Virus record (IMG/VR): IMGVR_UViG_3300046777_000246
Span: 1-35,133 of that record
Direction: 5' to 3' (one strand)
DNA: 35,133 nucleotides
Source: a virus
Under the pieces are notes generated by a model. The model saw only the letters and a list, made by a program, of their open reading frames with translations. It had not been told where the DNA came from and ran no database searches. The translations under genes and the position numbers were made by a program. Shown in pieces: positions 9-35,133 of the stretch. Within the stretch, counting starts at the first letter, position 1. Each line of letters starts with the position of its first letter.

Positions 9-134
9 CAGACGCTAGGTCTAAAGTCACCGTACTCATCCATAAACACGCCTGAAAACCCCAGCCCTCGCATAGCGTCTGCGTTGTCAGCACCGAACAA
101 GCGTATTTTTGCGCCTGTCACTAGCTCGACTGTT
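9..134. repeat. Terminal direct repeat (left copy), circular closure
   Basis: These 126 bases are identical to 35008-35133. Joining 35133 to 135 restores one continuous terminase reading frame, which shows that the overlap is the circularisation point of the assembly. The true unique length is then about 34,999 bp. A biological terminal repeat lying inside terL is less likely. Confidence 0.9.
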
Positions 135-2736: not shown

Positions 2737-3062
2737 TTTGTAATCCTTTCTAAGTTCCGATTGTTTGCTTCCTGTGTCCGCCAAACTTCAATTCTAAGCT
2801 TTGCCGATTCTAAGCGATACTTTAGTAATTCTGCTTGTTCTGTTGCTTCACCAATTGCTTTTGCTAATTCTTGATATTTTGGATCTGCATACGCTTCACG
2901 TTCTTGTGCGCCTATTGCTGTTTCATAACTATTTTTCATCAGAATTGCTTTCAAGCTGCTTTTAAACACTTCAAGCTCTGCAAGTCTGCCTTTTGCTTTT
3001 GCGTATTCTGGCGCATTGTCAAAAATGTATTCAACAGCTTTATGCGGATCAATCTCTATCAT
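2733..3062 (-). CDS. Coiled-coil hypothetical phage protein
   Basis: A 109-aa protein rich in Ala/Glu/Lys/Leu, with long helices and probable coiled coil from about residue 18 to the end (EYAKAKGRLAELEVFKSSLK, then EQAELLKYRLESAKLRIEVW). Such short coiled-coil proteins are common in phage early operons. Function unknown. The start at 3062 has AGGGAAG upstream and overlaps the glycosyltransferase stop by 14 bp, consistent with translational coupling. Confidence 0.75.
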   Translation of the reverse strand: MIEIDPHKAVEYIFDNAPEYAKAKGRLAELEVFKSSLKAILMKNSYETAIGAQEREAYADPKYQELAKAIGEATEQAELLKYRLESAKLRIEVWRTQEANNRNLERITK

Positions 3063-3903
3063 GTTCTTCCCTTTTCACTAATTTCATCCCATATTCATTG
3101 ATGTCTTGTTGAACAACAATGTTTTGTTTTTTTTTTAGGATATTTTTTTTGAACACGTCAAAATCAACTCTGTGGTGCCATCTGTCATAACGCCATGCAA
3201 GCGAAGCGTATTCAGGATAAGCATCAACTAATGTTTGCGACTTTTCTTTTTTCTTTTCACCGTCTGCGTATAACTCTGTTGTATTGCCACCTTTCATGCT
3301 CAATGTCGCAGCTTTATCTTGCAAAAACGCATTAAACAAAATAGTGCACCACCCATCTTTCAATACATCGAGCGACAACGCTACATCTTCGTTGTATTTA
3401 AGTTTCCACCTATGTGGCAAATCATTTCTTATCAATATGCAAGAAAAAATGCGTGTGTTTAAACGAAACGCTGGCATATCTGTGCGTTCTTCTGCAAAAA
3501 AACGATACTGAAATCCAGATTGTGCGACATTTTCGTATCTATCTGTGAAATCTTCCGCTGCACGAAATATTGCGCCAGACCTGCAAGGTATGCGTTTGTT
3601 TTTGTACAAGCGAGCAAACCCATGTATGTTGTCATCAAGTATCCAATGAAACTTGTGACCCTCGCTAATTGAATGCTCCCAACACCAATTTCTAGCAGGA
3701 TAACTTCCTAGCCCAAGATTGCTAAAAGGCAATACAAGTATCTTAGATTTGTCGATAACAGCAGCATATTGCTCGTATTCTTGTGGTTCAACAACAATAC
3801 GATATGCAACGCCCATCACTTCAAGCGCTTTGCTTGTTTTGCGTGTGTCAGCACGACCTTTTGAAATGATGTAGATTGGATATTTAGGATGATTGTGTTT
3901 CAT
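3049..3903 (-). CDS. TET-associated-type glycosyltransferase (TAGT-like, GT-A fold)
   Basis: A 284-aa probable sugar transferase. It opens with a Rossmann-like strand and loop (YPIYIISKGRADTRKTSKAL), has the nucleotide-sugar/metal motif WILDDNI at residues 87-93, and a second acidic motif NEDVALSLDVLKDGW at about 171-185. This layout is that of the phage TAGT family, predicted from gene context in published comparative genomics to glycosylate modified bases in phage DNA. Here there is no TET/JBP dioxygenase or nucleotide hydroxymethylase in the genome. The substrate is therefore open: a host-made or unknown modified base, or not DNA. It overlaps the 82-aa MPEF gene by 20 bp. ATG 3903 is preferred to TTG 3909. 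Confidence 0.8.
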   Translation of the reverse strand: MKHNHPKYPIYIISKGRADTRKTSKALEVMGVAYRIVVEPQEYEQYAAVIDKSKILVLPFSNLGLGSYPARNWCWEHSISEGHKFHWILDDNIHGFARLYKNKRIPCRSGAIFRAAEDFTDRYENVAQSGFQYRFFAEERTDMPAFRLNTRIFSCILIRNDLPHRWKLKYNEDVALSLDVLKDGWCTILFNAFLQDKAATLSMKGGNTTELYADGEKKKEKSQTLVDAYPEYASLAWRYDRWHHRVDFDVFKKNILKKKQNIVVQQDINEYGMKLVKREEHDRD

Positions 3904-4132
3904 CGTCAATCCACACTTTTTTATCTGTATTTACACGCACAGGAAACATTACGCTTTTTGTTGTGAAATGTATGCGTTTCCCTATCAACTCAGAAAACTC
4001 ATTCATATCTTCGACAGTAATGAAATTGACAACAACTGAATGAATAGTTTTTAAATTTGTTTGTTCAAATTCTGGCATTCCTTGCCATTCTTTTTTCCAA
4101 TCAAATTCTTCGTCTCCAAACAAGTCTTTCAT
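3884..4132 (-). CDS. Small 'MPEF-motif' protein coupled to the glycosyltransferase
   Basis: An 82-aa protein with WKKEWQGMPEFEQ (residues about 12-24), an alternating strand segment IHSVVVNFITVEDMNEFSEL and GKRIHFTTKSVMFP. I recall the same pattern (WxxMPEF, then a strand, then TKSxWFP) as a free-standing or ParB-fused C-terminal module next to TAGT genes in other phages; this is memory, not a search. It overlaps both neighbours (4 bp upstream, 20 bp with the transferase), so the pair is almost certainly co-expressed. The role is unknown; it could be a DNA- or substrate-recognition partner of the transferase. Confidence 0.7.
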   Translation of the reverse strand: MKDLFGDEEFDWKKEWQGMPEFEQTNLKTIHSVVVNFITVEDMNEFSELIGKRIHFTTKSVMFPVRVNTDKKVWIDDETQSS

Positions 4133-4355: not shown

Positions 4356-4730
4356 CTAAACAATTTCCGATACTTTTTGTGCAATCCGTGACCTAAATTG
4401 CCCCATATCCTCGCCCGGCCTTGGTGTCATACCCAATTCCCTTGCTTTCTCCATCGTCAATTGCTCTGTTGAATACCAAGGCAATGCGGGTTTTTTAGGT
4501 TGTTTCGGCTTCATGTCCAACTCATCGTAATACCGACCTTGATTTAGCCATGTCGCTGGATGCGGTATGTACTCTGTCGCTGTCTCTTTTAGTTTCCAAT
4601 ATTCAATATGCGTCTCTAGCGCATCAATTGCTAATTCCTGCTCATCTATCGGAAGCTTGGCAAACGATTGCATAGCGGTCTTTTTAGCGACTTTGCGAGG
4701 GTATTTTGACCAAAAGTCATTAAAGCTCAT
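4356..4730 (-). CDS. Replisome-organiser/DnaT-like C-terminal domain protein
   Basis: A 124-aa protein beginning SFNDFWSKYPRKVAKKTAMQ and containing YIPHPATWLNQGRYYDE at about 54-70. The FWxxYPRKxxK plus IPHPATWLNxGRW signature is the C-terminal part of many phage replication proteins of the lambda O / replisome organiser type. The usual N-terminal winged helix is missing here, although a separate winged-helix protein is encoded upstream (5977-6303). It probably helps load the host helicase. It overlaps the 210-aa gene by 4 bp. The family pattern is clear; the exact role is inferred. Confidence 0.78.
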   Translation of the reverse strand: MSFNDFWSKYPRKVAKKTAMQSFAKLPIDEQELAIDALETHIEYWKLKETATEYIPHPATWLNQGRYYDELDMKPKQPKKPALPWYSTEQLTMEKARELGMTPRPGEDMGQFRSRIAQKVSEIV

Positions 4731-5359
4731 GTGCGCTCCTCAATGTTGTAAAACCAATCGTCACCAGCAGACCATTTGCGTGTACCGTCTACTGTCCAAA
4801 TGTTTCGTGCTGCTTGAAAGTCAGGGAATTTTGTCTCGCTTGGAATCAGCGACTGGTCATACCAAAGGCAACGGTTGTTTGGTTGACAAGCAAATTGTCC
4901 GTTGTCTAGCCGTATCCAGTTAAACGATTTATGTTCTTCAGCTTGCTCTGTGAATCCGGTGTCAACCTCTAACCCGTCAGCGCAAAAGTCTACGGTAAAC
5001 AAGTATGTGCCAAAGTGCCATTGCTTGTCTTTGCCTAAAAACTTGACCCCAAGGTTACGCAGCCCAATCTTTTCAATAATTGTGAACTTGTAACCCATGC
5101 AGTCCCAAAGCTGTAGCGTGTCAATGGGCAACGATTCAGGCGAGTTTGTGTGCCAGACATAGGCGTGTATTGGTAATTTGTCATAAAGCGCACCGTAAGC
5201 TGGCAACAAGCTTTCAATGCGAAATACTTGCCCACGCAAAGCTTTAAGACTTACCCAAATTGCAGGTTCGTATTGACCGTGACCTTTCTCAAAGTTATAC
5301 AAAAACTCACGCCGCACAAAGCATTTTATTGGTGGCAATGACGCAACAATGTAACTCAT
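4727..5359 (-). CDS. Conserved hypothetical protein (210 aa)
   Basis: ATG 5359 has AAGGA 7 nt upstream and gives MSYIVASLPPIKCFVRREFL and so on; the open frame extends to 5449 but that part only overlaps the preceding gene. The protein is aromatic- and Trp-rich (WVSLKALRGQVF, AYVWHTNSP, WDCMGYKFT, GYLF-type strands), suggesting a beta-rich fold. I do not recognise a characterised domain. It sits between the 114-aa early protein and the replication protein, so a role in early takeover or replication is possible but only inferred. Confidence 0.75.
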   Translation of the reverse strand: MSYIVASLPPIKCFVRREFLYNFEKGHGQYEPAIWVSLKALRGQVFRIESLLPAYGALYDKLPIHAYVWHTNSPESLPIDTLQLWDCMGYKFTIIEKIGLRNLGVKFLGKDKQWHFGTYLFTVDFCADGLEVDTGFTEQAEEHKSFNWIRLDNGQFACQPNNRCLWYDQSLIPSETKFPDFQAARNIWTVDGTRKWSAGDDWFYNIEERT

Positions 5360-5651
5360 TTTTTTTCCTTGCTCTAATTGCATCGGCGCAATCATCCGCA
5401 CCCCAACTTTGACCTTGGGTATGAATTTCATCGCAACCCAGTTCATCACCCGTATATGGCTCTATCCCTTTATATAATTTCCATTTGTCAGATGAATATT
5501 CATCACACACTTTCGCACACGCATCACGCTCATCTTGGCGCACTAACTTGGCAAAGCGTTCAATATCCGCAATTTCTGCCTCCCACAGCCCTTCGTATGC
5601 AGTAAGGCTAAACCCCGCCTTAAAAGCAAGCTCTTTGATTCGTTCATCCAT
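5307..5651 (-). CDS. Early hypothetical protein with ERDACA motif (114 aa)
   Basis: ATG 5651 gives MDERIKELAFKAGFSLTAYE, then EIADIERFAKLVRQDERDACAKVCDEY, and a C-terminal DDCADAIRARKK. This ERFAxLVRxDERDACAKVC pattern recurs in many phage early operons without known function; the regularly spaced Cys/Asp/Glu residues could bind metal. It overlaps the upstream gene by 8 bp and the downstream gene by 53 bp. The last residues after RARKK look non-conserved, so the tail may have grown into its neighbour. Confidence 0.72.
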   Translation of the reverse strand: MDERIKELAFKAGFSLTAYEGLWEAEIADIERFAKLVRQDERDACAKVCDEYSSDKWKLYKGIEPYTGDELGCDEIHTQGQSWGADDCADAIRARKKNELHCCVIATNKMLCAA

Positions 5652-12462: not shown

Positions 12463-12563
12463 GCTGCTACTACCCACGGAATCAAAGTTGTCATCACAAT
12501 CAATACTACCGGAAGCAAGACAATTGCCCCGAATAGTATTGATGCTTCTTTTAGATACTTCAA
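12432..12563 (-). CDS. Tiny hydrophobic protein with TTG start (43 aa), tentative
   Basis: TTG 12563 overlaps the stop of the last glycine-rich fibre gene (TTGA). It reads LKYLKEASILFGAIVLLPVV, then LIVMTTLIPWVVAAWIISKS. Two hydrophobic stretches and a charged N-terminus look like a small holin or antiholin. It fills the 97-bp gap between the fibre gene and the next lysis gene and overlaps the latter by 31 bp. No clear Shine-Dalgarno; it would rely on reinitiation. Confidence 0.5.
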   Translation of the reverse strand: MKYLKEASILFGAIVLLPVVLIVMTTLIPWVVAAWIISKSSTS

Positions 12564-13495
12564 GCGTTGTACGTAGAACTCGAAGTGAAGGTGTGGATTG
12601 TATAGCCACCAGACGATGTAACAGTACCGCCTGTGCCACGCTGTGAGCCAAGGTAAGCAATAATTACTACGCCTGAACCGCCGGTTGCGCCAGATACATT
12701 ACTACCGCCGCCGCCACCGCCGCCTGTATTTGCTGTTCCTGCCGTGCCATTATTTACTCCACCAGCACCGCCACCGCCAGTACCACCTGCTCCTTGTCCT
12801 GTTTCTGATGCACCGCCACCGCCACCAGCATAAAAAACAACAGACCCGCTAATCGAACTAGATAATCCTGCACCACCAGCACCACCAGTAACAGTAGTAT
12901 TAGGGCTACCTGCTGCGCCTGCACCTCCTCCACCTCCTCCAGCGCCAAAACCAGAAGCTGCCGCATGATCGCCGCCTACATTACCTTGCCCTGATGTTGC
13001 AGAGCCTCCCGGGTACACATTTGCGCTGCCGCCTGATGCGTAAGCAGATCCGCCACCAGAACCGCCTGAACCACCTAAATAGTTAACAGTATTTGCTGAT
13101 CCTCCCCTACCACCGCCAATAGCACTTATTGAATTAAATGAAGAATTAGTTCCATTTGATGCTGTAGCAAGATTTACTGATCCAGCACCACCTGCGCCGA
13201 CTGTAATTGTGTATGCAGTTCCTGAACTTAAAATGCTAGTCCCAGTTAAATATCCACCTGCGCCACCACCACCATAGATTGCACCACCGCCACCGCCAGC
13301 TACAACAAGGTAATTAACCGAATACCCAGCAGGTTGTGAGAATTGCAGCCAAGAAGAAGTTGTAGCGTCATACCACTCTGGGTTTCCAGTTGTGGAGTTT
13401 TGACGAATCATGCCACTTGCAGGAGTAGCAGGACGCTGCGCCGTAGTCCCCACGGGGAGCTTTAAATAGTCTGTACCCTGTACGTCAAGAGCCAT
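12560..13495 (-). CDS. Glycine-rich tail fibre/adhesin, paralogue C
   Basis: A 311-aa protein. The N-terminal collar VPVGTTAQRPATPASGMIRQ-type segment (LPVGTTAQRPATPASG, then NSTTGNPEWYDATTSSW) is followed by VNYLVVAGGGGGAIYGGGGA and about 200 residues of Gly/Ala/Ser-rich repeats. It ends with GTGGTVTSSGGYTIHTFTSS. The Gly-rich domain resembles the phage Gly_rich_2 type, probably packed polyglycine-II helices that present receptor-binding loops. The start has AAGGA 8 nt upstream; the upstream stop and this site form the string TAATTAAGGA. One of three paralogues. Confidence 0.85.
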   Translation of the reverse strand: MALDVQGTDYLKLPVGTTAQRPATPASGMIRQNSTTGNPEWYDATTSSWLQFSQPAGYSVNYLVVAGGGGGAIYGGGGAGGYLTGTSILSSGTAYTITVGAGGAGSVNLATASNGTNSSFNSISAIGGGRGGSANTVNYLGGSGGSGGGSAYASGGSANVYPGGSATSGQGNVGGDHAAASGFGAGGGGGGAGAAGSPNTTVTGGAGGAGLSSSISGSVVFYAGGGGGASETGQGAGGTGGGGAGGVNNGTAGTANTGGGGGGGSNVSGATGGSGVVIIAYLGSQRGTGGTVTSSGGYTIHTFTSSSTYNA

Positions 13496-13876: not shown

Positions 13877-14830
13877 TTAAGCCGTGAATGTACCGCTAGA
13901 TGTAAATGTGTGGATTGTGTTGCCACCGCTTGATGTAACTGTGCCGCCTGTGCCTCGTTGTGCACCAGCGTAGCTGATAATAACAATGCCTGAGCCGCCT
14001 GCGCCGCCTGCGTAATTTCCTACAGAAGAACCGCATCCACCGCCGCCGCCACCTGTATTTACAGTTCCAGCCGTACCATTTGCAACAGCGCCACCAGCAC
14101 CGCCACCACCAGCACCACCAGCACCACCAGCCGTAGCATATCCACCGCCACCGCCACCGCCTGCATAAGTTACAGCAGAACCAGAAATAGAATTTGAAGC
14201 ACCTGCACCGCCAATACCGCCACTTGTACTAGAGCCATTACCACCAATAGCACTAGCACCGCCACCACCGCCGCTGCCATAAGCACCCGCTGCGGTGCTA
14301 CCAACTCCCCCCGCATAACCTTGTCCAGATGTTCCTGACCCAGCAGTACCGCCAAATGACGAACCACCACCTGATGCACCAGAAACACCATTTGTTGCTG
14401 TTGTATTGCTTGGCGCTAATACGCTGCCACCACCAAGTGCCGTAGCAATTCCGTTAATGATTGAACTATTGCCGCTATTTCCCGCTGCTCTACCAGCACC
14501 AGCAGAAGCACCTCCTGCGCCCACAGTAATTGTATAAGCCGTGCCTGAAGTAAATGCAGTTGTTCCAGTTAATAAACCGCCTGCGCCGCCGCCACCTGTA
14601 GGATAATCTCCACCATTAGTAGAGCCGCCAGAACCGCCGCCACCCACAACAAGGTAACTAGCCGAGTACAGCAACGAAGTAATTGGTTGCCATTGCGAAC
14701 CAGTCCAGCTTTCCAATTGACCAAGCGTACTATTCCACCCAATCTGCCCGTTTACAGGCGTTGATGGTCTACCTGCCGTTGTCCATGATGGTGGGCCAAA
14801 TCCTGTTGAGCCGCCGACGTATGCTGTCAT
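13877..14830 (-). CDS. Glycine-rich tail fibre/adhesin, paralogue B
   Basis: A 317-aa protein. The short N-terminus TAYVGGSTGFGPPSWTTAGR leads to the collar RPSTPVNGQIGWNSTLGQLE plus WTGSQW, then SASYLVVGGGGSGGSTNGGD and a long Gly/Ala/Ser-rich domain with repeated TYAGGGGGGG-type blocks. The end GTGGTVTSSGGNTIHTFTSS, then GTFTA, is nearly identical to that of paralogue C. Its N-terminus differs from paralogue A, suggesting separate attachment or a captured fusion. AAGGAAAG precedes the ATG. Confidence 0.85.
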   Translation of the reverse strand: MTAYVGGSTGFGPPSWTTAGRPSTPVNGQIGWNSTLGQLESWTGSQWQPITSLLYSASYLVVGGGGSGGSTNGGDYPTGGGGAGGLLTGTTAFTSGTAYTITVGAGGASAGAGRAAGNSGNSSIINGIATALGGGSVLAPSNTTATNGVSGASGGGSSFGGTAGSGTSGQGYAGGVGSTAAGAYGSGGGGGASAIGGNGSSTSGGIGGAGASNSISGSAVTYAGGGGGGGYATAGGAGGAGGGGAGGAVANGTAGTVNTGGGGGGCGSSVGNYAGGAGGSGIVIISYAGAQRGTGGTVTSSGGNTIHTFTSSGTFTA

Positions 14831-14839
14831 GTTCTTTCC

Positions 14840-15823
14840 TTATGCCGTAAATGTGCCTGACGAAGTGAAGGAATGCACCGTGTATGTGATTCCGCCAGAA
14901 GTAAAGCTAGTAACTGTGCCGCCTGTGCCTCGTTGAGTGCCGGGGTACGAAACAATCACAATACCTGAGCCACCTGCTGCGCCTGAGCCGCCGCCACCGC
15001 CTGTATTTGCAGTCCCCGCTACGCCTGATGCGCCGCCACCTCCCGCACCGCCAGCGCCACCACCAATAACGCTACCGCCTGCGCCACCGCCTGCGTAATA
15101 TGTTGCCGTACCTGTAATTGAGCTTTGTAAACCTACGCCACCTGCACCGCCAGCCGAACTTCCATTTGCAGGCGATCCACCAACGCCACCAGCACCACCA
15201 CCACCTGCGGAAGGATAGTTAGGGCCTGCTGCGCCTTGACCTTGACCACCGTTATTACCTTGCCCAGCTGTTCCTGTGCCGCCATATAAGTTACCGCCGC
15301 CACCGCCTGAACCACCATTGCTTGCGTAAGCAGCAGTTCCAATAGCGCCAGCGCCACCACCAATAGAAGTTGAAAATGTACTAAAAGAAGAATCTGATCC
15401 GTTAGTTGCGCCACTTGATCCACCTGCGCCAACGGTGATTGTGTAAGCTGTTCCAGCGCTTAATGTGGCATAAGAAGTAAGCATACCCCCTGCGCCACCA
15501 GCACCGCCTGCACCACCACCACCACCTGCGACAGTAAGATAATTTACGGTGTATGCAGGGCCAGCGACCGCACCCCATGAAGTACCGTTATAAATTTCAG
15601 TATAACCAAGCGTTGTGTTATACCTCATTTGACCAGTAACAGGGCTTGCAGGACGCTGTGCTGTTGTTCCAACAGGAATTGTTGCCCCACCTGTTGTTGC
15701 ATCCGCTGTAATTGCTACGCCATTAGCAGCAGGAATTGTCATTATGAAATTGGAAGCAGTATTGGCTGCATCAAGTGTTACCGATCCACCTGAAGCTGCT
15801 CCAAGTTTTATTGATCCAGCCAT
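14840..15823 (-). CDS. Glycine-rich tail fibre/adhesin, paralogue A
   Basis: ATG 15823 (GGAG 6 nt upstream) gives a protein of about 327 aa. MAGSIKLGAASGGSVTLDAA, then NTASNFIMTIPAANG, is a phage fibre N-terminal module also seen in the adjacent 82-aa protein. VPVGTTAQRPASPVTG-type collar, YNTTLGYTEIYNGTSW, VNYLTVAGGGGGAGGAGGAG and about 190 Gly-rich residues follow. The C-terminal tag is GTGGTVTSFTSGGITYTVHS. Probably a trimeric or polyglycine-II adhesin at the tail tip. Confidence 0.85.
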   Translation of the reverse strand: MAGSIKLGAASGGSVTLDAANTASNFIMTIPAANGVAITADATTGGATIPVGTTAQRPASPVTGQMRYNTTLGYTEIYNGTSWGAVAGPAYTVNYLTVAGGGGGAGGAGGAGGMLTSYATLSAGTAYTITVGAGGSSGATNGSDSSFSTFSTSIGGGAGAIGTAAYASNGGSGGGGGNLYGGTGTAGQGNNGGQGQGAAGPNYPSAGGGGAGGVGGSPANGSSAGGAGGVGLQSSITGTATYYAGGGAGGSVIGGGAGGAGGGGASGVAGTANTGGGGGSGAAGGSGIVIVSYPGTQRGTGGTVTSFTSGGITYTVHSFTSSGTFTA

Positions 15824-15825
15824 AT

Positions 15826-16074
15826 TTAGCTCCAAATGCTTCCGTTATATGTTTCAAACAATCCAGTTGTAGTATTAAATCTAACCATACCTGTAACTGG
15901 TGCAGCAGGGCGTTGTGTGGTTGTGCCTGTAGGCAAAAATATCCCGCCTGTTGTTGAATCTGCGTATGTCAACTGTCCTGTTGTTGCAGGGATCACTACC
16001 GTGACATTGGACGCTGTGTCAACAGGGTTGACTTCAACCGTTCCGAGCGCAGGTGCTTTTAGTCGTAAGCCCAT
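15826..16074 (-). CDS. Truncated fibre module protein (82 aa)
   Basis: MGLRLKAPALGTVEVNPVDT, then ASNVTVVIPATTGQLTYADS and LPTGTTTQRPAAPVTGMVRF, and the end FNTTTGLFETYNGSIWS. This matches, segment by segment, the N-terminal about 90 residues of paralogue A, but it stops exactly where the glycine-rich domain begins. It looks like a fibre base without adhesin: a deletion product, an adaptor that caps the base, or one subunit of a hetero-oligomer. The ATG is one base after the upstream stop. The frame is open to 16158, but that part overlaps the 230-aa gene. Confidence 0.75.
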   Translation of the reverse strand: MGLRLKAPALGTVEVNPVDTASNVTVVIPATTGQLTYADSTTGGIFLPTGTTTQRPAAPVTGMVRFNTTTGLFETYNGSIWS

Positions 16075-34077: not shown

Positions 34078-35133
34078 ATCCTGCTACCCCTTGGAGGTTG
34101 GTAAGTTGCCCACATATCGTTCAAAGTGACCGTGTTCTCTGGGCCAACTATCAGCGGTTTTACAACGTCTGGTGGCTTCACTTTGGGTTCTAAGCGCCAA
34201 GCTACTGCCATCATCCTAAAAGCGTCTGAAGGGTGTGAAGTCCAGTCATGTCTTGGACTGCTTCTAAACGCTTTCTTATCTTCGTCGTATTCCCTTTGAT
34301 ACTGTCTCAGAGCTTCAAGTCCTTCCGAGCATTTAGTTTTGTCGAACCAACACATCGGAAGACATTGCCTTACTGCTTGAATCCCATCTTGTACGCCCAA
34401 GTCAGGCACAATCGCCATGTTGTTTATACCTAGATGTTCCGCCAATTGCTCAATAACCGACTTGCCTTGTGCTGCTAGAGTTTTAGCTCTTGCATCATGC
34501 GGAAGTTGATGTTTTCCGTATTTATAAGGCTTTTCTTTGATTATTTTCGCAATTTCTTCAATATTAGCACCGGAAATAGCAAAAAAGTCGATTAAATGTA
34601 TTTCATTTCGAACAACTTGATACCACCAAATTGCGGTGTCATCCCGATAGCCCAAGTCCCAAGCGGTGTGAACTGGCACATGAGGGTCATACGGCACGTT
34701 TGTAATGCGCCCCTCGTCTTCTGCTAAACGCAAGTCTGTGCCGTAGTAAGCGCCAAGAATCGACGCTTCAAACGAGCACTCATATTCTTGCAAGTATTGG
34801 TCTTCAGAGATTTGTGCTCTTGCAGCATTTAATTCAGTCTGAGGCAACAACCCCGATTCTGACGCTGTAAGCTTGAGGCAAAACCATTCACCTTTGCTTT
34901 TGGTTGCTTGGTCATATATCTGCCAAAACTGATTTTTGCCTTTGGGTGTCCCTGCGAACACAGCCCAGCCCTGTTTGTCAGACAAAGTAGGACGTATGAC
35001 GTTACCCCAGACGCTAGGTCTAAAGTCACCGTACTCATCCATAAACACGCCTGAAAACCCCAGCCCTCGCATAGCGTCTGCGTTGTCAGCACCGAACAAG
35101 CGTATTTTTGCGCCTGTCACTAGCTCGACTGTT
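34074..35133 (-). CDS. terL: Terminase large subunit, C-terminal part (5' end continues at 134/135 to 412)
   Basis: This supplies residues about 93-445 of the joined 445-aa terminase. Walker B is GVFMDEYGDF (Asp125/Glu126 in the full protein), followed by the coupling motif FAGTPKGKNQFW. The nuclease domain starts at VHTAWDLGYRDDTAIWW (Asp252) and ends with the conserved HDWTSHPSDAFRMMAVAWRL. Together with Walker A at the other end of the window the enzyme looks complete. Its stop overlaps the 102-aa gene by 4 bp. The apparent internal start at 35120 is an artefact of the linear cut. Confidence 0.95.
   Translation of the reverse strand, partial: TVELVTGAKIRLFGADNADAMRGLGFSGVFMDEYGDFRPSVWGNVIRPTLSDKQGWAVFAGTPKGKNQFWQIYDQATKSKGEWFCLKLTASESGLLPQTELNAARAQISEDQYLQEYECSFEASILGAYYGTDLRLAEDEGRITNVPYDPHVPVHTAWDLGYRDDTAIWWYQVVRNEIHLIDFFAISGANIEEIAKIIKEKPYKYGKHQLPHDARAKTLAAQGKSVIEQLAEHLGINNMAIVPDLGVQDGIQAVRQCLPMCWFDKTKCSEGLEALRQYQREYDEDKKAFRSSPRHDWTSHPSDAFRMMAVAWRLEPKVKPPDVVKPLIVGPENTVTLNDMWATYQPPRGSRI
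35008..35133. repeat. Terminal direct repeat (right copy)
   Basis: These bases are identical to 9-134. This copy continues naturally into upstream terL sequence at 35007 and below, whereas the left copy is preceded by 8 foreign bases, so this is the authentic junction. Confidence 0.9.

Follow-up and report, generated by a model that had tools for sequence, protein, structure and literature searches.

Glycosyltransferases of the TET-associated class (TAGT, Pfam PF20691) have a characterised member in ggt of phage T6, an enzyme that works on DNA (PMC13216743). The same 2026 paper reported PF20691 in phages T2 and T6, described its GT-A fold and suggested novel transferases; a solitary TAGT, unaccompanied by an alpha- or beta-glycosyltransferase, was counted in 288 of 753 genomes (PMC13216743), so that a 'lone' TAGT is no rarity. 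In Nonlabens phage P12024L, the operon gp26-gp28 encodes TET, a TAGT and a methyltransferase. For Aeromonas phage Aeh1, a 2021 paper, after Iyer et al. 2013, described Aeh1ORF087c as presumably modifying DNA at an unknown base (PMC8056088); we take this ORF to be Aeh1p093, the sole TAGT match in the Aeh1 genome. Through the solitary TAGTs and Aeh1, the general idea that a lone TAGT modifies DNA is already in print. In arabinosylation of the RB69 type, a 5-hydroxylated cytosine is made first (PMC13390438).

The locus described here lies in a virus sequence of 35,133 nucleotides (IMG/VR record IMGVR_UViG_3300046777_000246, positions 1 to 35,133), which was analysed over its entire length and is referred to below as the window. 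Its glycosyltransferase gene (3049..3903, minus strand, ATG at 3903) encodes 284 amino acids that match PF20691 over the whole profile (positions 1-205 of 205, E=5.4e-44, about 151 bits against a curated cutoff of 27.5 bits), the full-length match that we required of a TAGT; the PHROG match is phrog_842 (E=5.7e-45). Two motifs are conserved among 43 relatives: DDN (residues 90-92, 3628..3636, minus), in which D90, D91 and N92 are invariant, and NED (residues 171-173, 3385..3393, minus), in which N171 and D173 are invariant and E172 is kept in at least 90%. By analogy with GT-A families, from which the metal role is carried over, DDN would be a DXD-type metal and nucleotide-sugar site, and NED is a candidate catalytic base, a role taken from GT2-like GT-A enzymes. 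An earlier note on this DNA, made from its letters and open reading frames, had assigned the protein to the TAGT class and proposed a profile search; the end-to-end PF20691 match and the conservation of DDN and NED bear out that assignment, and the coordinates, lengths and motifs given there for this gene and its partner were correct. PF20691 also matched in the Bacillus subtilis and Bacteroides ihuae control genomes, one of these matches being above the curated cutoff.

The partner gene (3884..4132, minus) encodes the 82-aa MPEF protein, recognizable by the motifs WxxMPEF (residues 16-22, 4067..4087, minus) and TTKSVMFP (residues 57-64, 3941..3964, minus). It has no significant family in Pfam, PHROG or NCBIfam. 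The pattern is kept in 30 divergent partners, where W16, M19, P20, F37 and P64 are invariant and T58 occurs in at least 90%. Measured against locus L002, whose TAGT is 93% identical to that of the window, dN/dS is 0.044 for the MPEF gene and 0.045 for the TAGT gene, values that denote strong purifying selection on both. The two genes overlap by 20 nt (3884..3903, minus), and a ribosome site, GGAG, precedes the partner gene, with none obvious before the glycosyltransferase gene. This arrangement makes the translational coupling asserted in the earlier note plausible. Overlap is a conserved habit: it occurs in 224 of 241 split MPEF/TAGT pairs and measures exactly 11 nt in 118 of these. The stand-alone model of the window MPEF was moderate (pLDDT 77, pTM 0.41), and the attempt to give the domain a structural identity failed: PDB held no match by sequence or by fold, and BFVD offered only a handful of uncharacterised proteins, 30-38% identical and of low TM-score.

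The glycosyltransferase fold was modelled with AF2 on a natural MPEF-TAGT fusion (locus L056, TAGT 56% identical to that of the window; pTM 0.85), and its PDB matches, all GT-A enzymes, predict a GT-A fold. These nearest folds are generic, with TM-scores all below 0.5, and they include polysaccharide and protein enzymes such as heparosan synthase, TarP and ppGalNAcT2. A predicted GT-A fold does not tell which acceptor is used. The earlier note had regarded a best structural match to a polysaccharide glycosyltransferase as evidence against DNA modification; since the nearest folds are generic GT-A enzymes at TM-scores below 0.5, such a match is not diagnostic.

Across phages, MPEF is a near-obligate partner of TAGT, far beyond what chance would give. 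When the glycosyltransferase only was used as the query, the strict MPEF pattern was present in the locus of 75 of 80 contigs, nearly always directly upstream of the TAGT or fused to it. Profiles applied to every fetched locus (duplicates kept, some loci sharing a contig and most fetched through TAGT) yielded 325 MPEF ORFs. Of these, 244 lie immediately upstream of a TAGT, 29 within the same ORF and the remaining 52 elsewhere in a TAGT-holding locus; none lay in a locus devoid of TAGT. Because most of those loci had been fetched via TAGT, a scan seeded with MPEF only constitutes a fair test, and in all 78 new loci that it returned a TAGT is fused, adjacent or within 1.5 kb. Conversely, MPEF is fused, adjacent or near in 308 of 316 TAGT domains; of the other eight, three lie at contig ends, two belong to divergent fusions, one has a sub-threshold MPEF, one is a second copy and one is the TET-linked TAGT of P12024L. 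An association of MPEF with such glycosyltransferase genes, which the earlier note had put forward, is confirmed by these counts. The window, with its MPEF gene adjacent to its TAGT gene, conforms to this unit, and the same minimal pair recurs in hundreds of contigs. The collection scan was run with the closer subset alignment A3, alignment A1 being too divergent, and the MPEF-TAGT alignment was built from natural fusions, rows that mixed stand-alone MPEF and TAGT proteins having misaligned and been dropped.

MPEF and TAGT form one protein in POP12, PTm1, Aeh1, phage 65, Kuja and Vibrio phages 1.124.O and 1.076.O, and Kuja carries the fusion twice, in tandem. Starred branches of the tree mark at least six changes of the fused state, an approximate figure obtained by a quick method, and long branches part the MPEF-TAGT clade both from T6 ggt and from the TET-linked TAGT. 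Other genes intervene at some pairs: a SAM-methyltransferase-like gene of ~260-280 aa lies between MPEF and TAGT in eight loci (L048, L230, L241, L265, L273, L282, L310 and L013), a GT-B gene is inserted in or adjacent to the pair in five (L277, L279, L315, L104 and L035), and a gene of ~354 aa without an assigned function takes such a place in L316 and L321. A second, distant TAGT-like family adjoins MPEF-TAGT units at L023:7659-8513, L098:7749-9476 and L290:4210-5055.

In 23 cases, a longer protein that precedes the TAGT has MPEF at its C-terminal end, and by eye ~21 of these 23 have a ParB-like N-terminal half. Among the ParB halves scanned with PF02195, eight match at E<0.001 and five of these exceed the curated cutoff (best 1.6e-10). 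Among PHROGs, they match ParB-like families as well as the N-terminal ~170 residues of phrog_498, a family of phage DNA methyltransferases, typically at E=1e-43 to 1e-49 and more weakly in L042 and L081. With tblastn they are 54-56% identical to annotated DNA methyltransferases of Psychrobacter phage pOW20-A and Vibrio D93. The ParB-N-MPEF proteins adjoin TAGT and often terminase genes too. The 82-aa partner in the window has no ParB half, and no ParB fusion was found among the closest window relatives, such fusions being confined to other relatives. In L083:200-610 and L093:9145-9747, the region fused ahead of MPEF does not resemble ParB. Because MPEF is, in the ParB-N-MPEF proteins, joined to a module that elsewhere heads phage DNA methyltransferases, DNA would be the likeliest target of the TAGT, by analogy with this module swap; the lack of the fusion in the closest window relatives counts against this. 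In the literature searched, which did not extend to Iyer et al. 2013, neither the MPEF partnership nor the ParB fusions are described, and as far as that literature goes both are new here.

A 126-nt exact direct repeat stands at both ends of the window (9-134 = 35008-35133), between which the terminase large subunit is also divided, and from this we conclude that the genome is complete and circularly mapping; gene absences in it are therefore meaningful. The complete window gave no match to Tet_JBP (PF12851), to thymidylate synthase/hydroxymethylase (PF00303) or to C5-methylase (PF00145), and it thus belongs neither to the TET-TAGT operons nor to the systems of T-even hmC glucosylation or 5mC-based hypermodification. 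In the controls, PF12851 detected the TET gene beside the TAGT of P12024L, and PF00303 and PF00145 matched in 9 and 10 of 14 genomes, respectively. The earlier note was accordingly right that TET/JBP, hydroxymethylase and thymidylate-synthase-like genes are missing. Tet_JBP was likewise absent from 44 MPEF-TAGT contig records and eight named phages, many of these relatives being contig fragments in which an absence carries little weight, with the window, Aeh1 and phage 65 as the better cases, together with two 47-kb Vibrio phages that were deposited as partial genomes. The large T4-like relatives carry thymidylate-synthase-family genes, a category in which synthase and hydroxymethylase are not told apart, and one of the two 47-kb Vibrio phages has a weak PF00145 match. 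Within the window, the pair is situated between replication and recombination genes (replication-initiation-like, RusA, HNH) and terminase. A neighbour labelled 'ferredoxin' (4730-5449, minus, phrog_3704) was considered as a hidden oxidation partner and rejected, as it occurs in 3 of 31 TAGT records and is unlinked to TAGT; phrog_3704 is found mainly beside purM in cyanophage and pelagiphage, and its label looks like annotation carry-over. Three further, neighbouring window genes (12560-13495, 13877-14830 and 14840-15835, minus) all match phrog_2295 and are probably duplicated tail-fibre-like proteins.

We regard MPEF and TAGT as one unit and propose, with moderate confidence, that it attaches sugar to bases of phage DNA between replication and packaging. 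The TAGT would be a metal-dependent, UDP-sugar-using GT-A enzyme and MPEF its dedicated accessory domain, which may dock it onto DNA or a DNA-bound partner, a role suggested by the phages that fuse MPEF to the front of TAGT or carry it on a ParB-N protein. DNA glycosylated in this way could block nucleases. Because no phage hydroxylase or hydroxymethylase was found, two kinds of acceptor would come into question: an unmodified base that receives the sugar directly, or a base bearing a hydroxyl that the host or an enzyme not recognised here has provided. The former is a tentative proposal: MPEF-TAGT might act directly on an ordinary, unhydroxylated base in DNA, with MPEF, sometimes on a ParB-like protein, as the docking element, and such a one-step reaction would need no TET, hydroxymethylase or kinase.

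Classical two-step chemistry whose first step is hidden, the TAGT acting on hmC, hmU or 5-hydroxy-C that comes from the host or from a phage enzyme too divergent to be recognised, we consider rather unlikely. Characterised DNA glycosyltransferases do take a hydroxyl acceptor, the TAGTs of T6 and P12024L adjoin gp42 and TET, respectively, several large relatives have thymidylate-synthase-family genes, and many window ORFs are without assigned function, so that an enzyme could have gone unrecognised; against this stand the three families missing from the complete window, the lack of Tet_JBP in contig records and named phages alike, the unlinked 'ferredoxin' neighbour, and the lack of a reported gp42 (gene 42) in Aeh1 and phage 65 (PMC2993671). 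Loss of the other genes of a TET or hmC pathway, leaving MPEF/TAGT as a decaying remnant, would also account for the missing acceptor-making enzymes, but dN/dS of about 0.045 on both genes, the conserved motifs and the recurrence of this two-gene arrangement across hundreds of contigs render it highly improbable.

The target might instead be a phage or host protein, a teichoic-acid-like polymer or another glycan. Heparosan synthase, TarP and ppGalNAcT2 are among the nearest solved folds, and GT-B, glycosyltransferase-like, methyltransferase and UDP-sugar genes lie beside the pairs of some relatives; genes of these kinds also occur in surface-glycan clusters, which counts against the DNA reading, and their presence would fit either longer sugar chains on DNA or a different target. 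We nevertheless judge a non-DNA target improbable, for the TM-scores to polysaccharide and protein GT-A enzymes all fall short of 0.5, the ParB of the ParB-N-MPEF fusions is that of DNA methyltransferases, and the family scans of the window gave no match to a glycan carrier or flippase. Restriction sites bear on the protective part of the DNA reading: GGCC stands at 0.39 and GATC at 0.42 of expected in the window, a depletion that would be unexpected in fully protected DNA and counts against protection. GGCC is also low in the closest window relatives (0.22-0.47), and since the TET-TAGT phage P12024L avoids it too, the depletion decides nothing on this point.

If DNA is the substrate, the pair would represent a compact, possibly one-step, two-gene sugar modification spread over hundreds of phages and many hosts. 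The analysis singles out MPEF as an uncharacterised domain, and the ParB fusions offer a handle on the delivery of modification enzymes to phage DNA. Culturable phages with MPEF and TAGT (Aeh1, phage 65, PTm1 and POP12) make the question testable now.

Among known systems, the arabinosylated-DNA phages (RB69 and relatives) have in common with the proposed role of MPEF-TAGT a sugar on phage DNA as counter-defence, although no 5-hydroxylated-cytosine pathway of their type was seen in the window. The ParB-N DNA methyltransferases (phrog_498, Psychrobacter phage pOW20-A) share the ParB-N domain of the ParB-MPEF proteins; in the former ParB leads into a methyltransferase, in the latter into MPEF beside a glycosyltransferase, and the window is without the ParB half. 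The T2/T6 ggt (beta-glucosyl-HMC-alpha-glucosyltransferase) combines PF20691 with a GT-A fold, as does MPEF-TAGT, but T6 ggt scores 39 bits to the profile against about 151-152 for the window TAGT, adjoins the gp42 hydroxymethylase, attaches a second glucose to one already in place and has no MPEF. P12024L resembles the window in being a small phage with a PF20691 glycosyltransferase; its TAGT is ~30% identical, across a long branch, and has no MPEF and an adjacent TET, which the window lacks. Aeh1 has MPEF and TAGT as in the window, with a TAGT that is 46% identical, but there the two are fused into a single protein, in a T4-like phage of 233 kb with a thymidylate-synthase-family gene, whereas the 35-kb phage described here has them as two genes.
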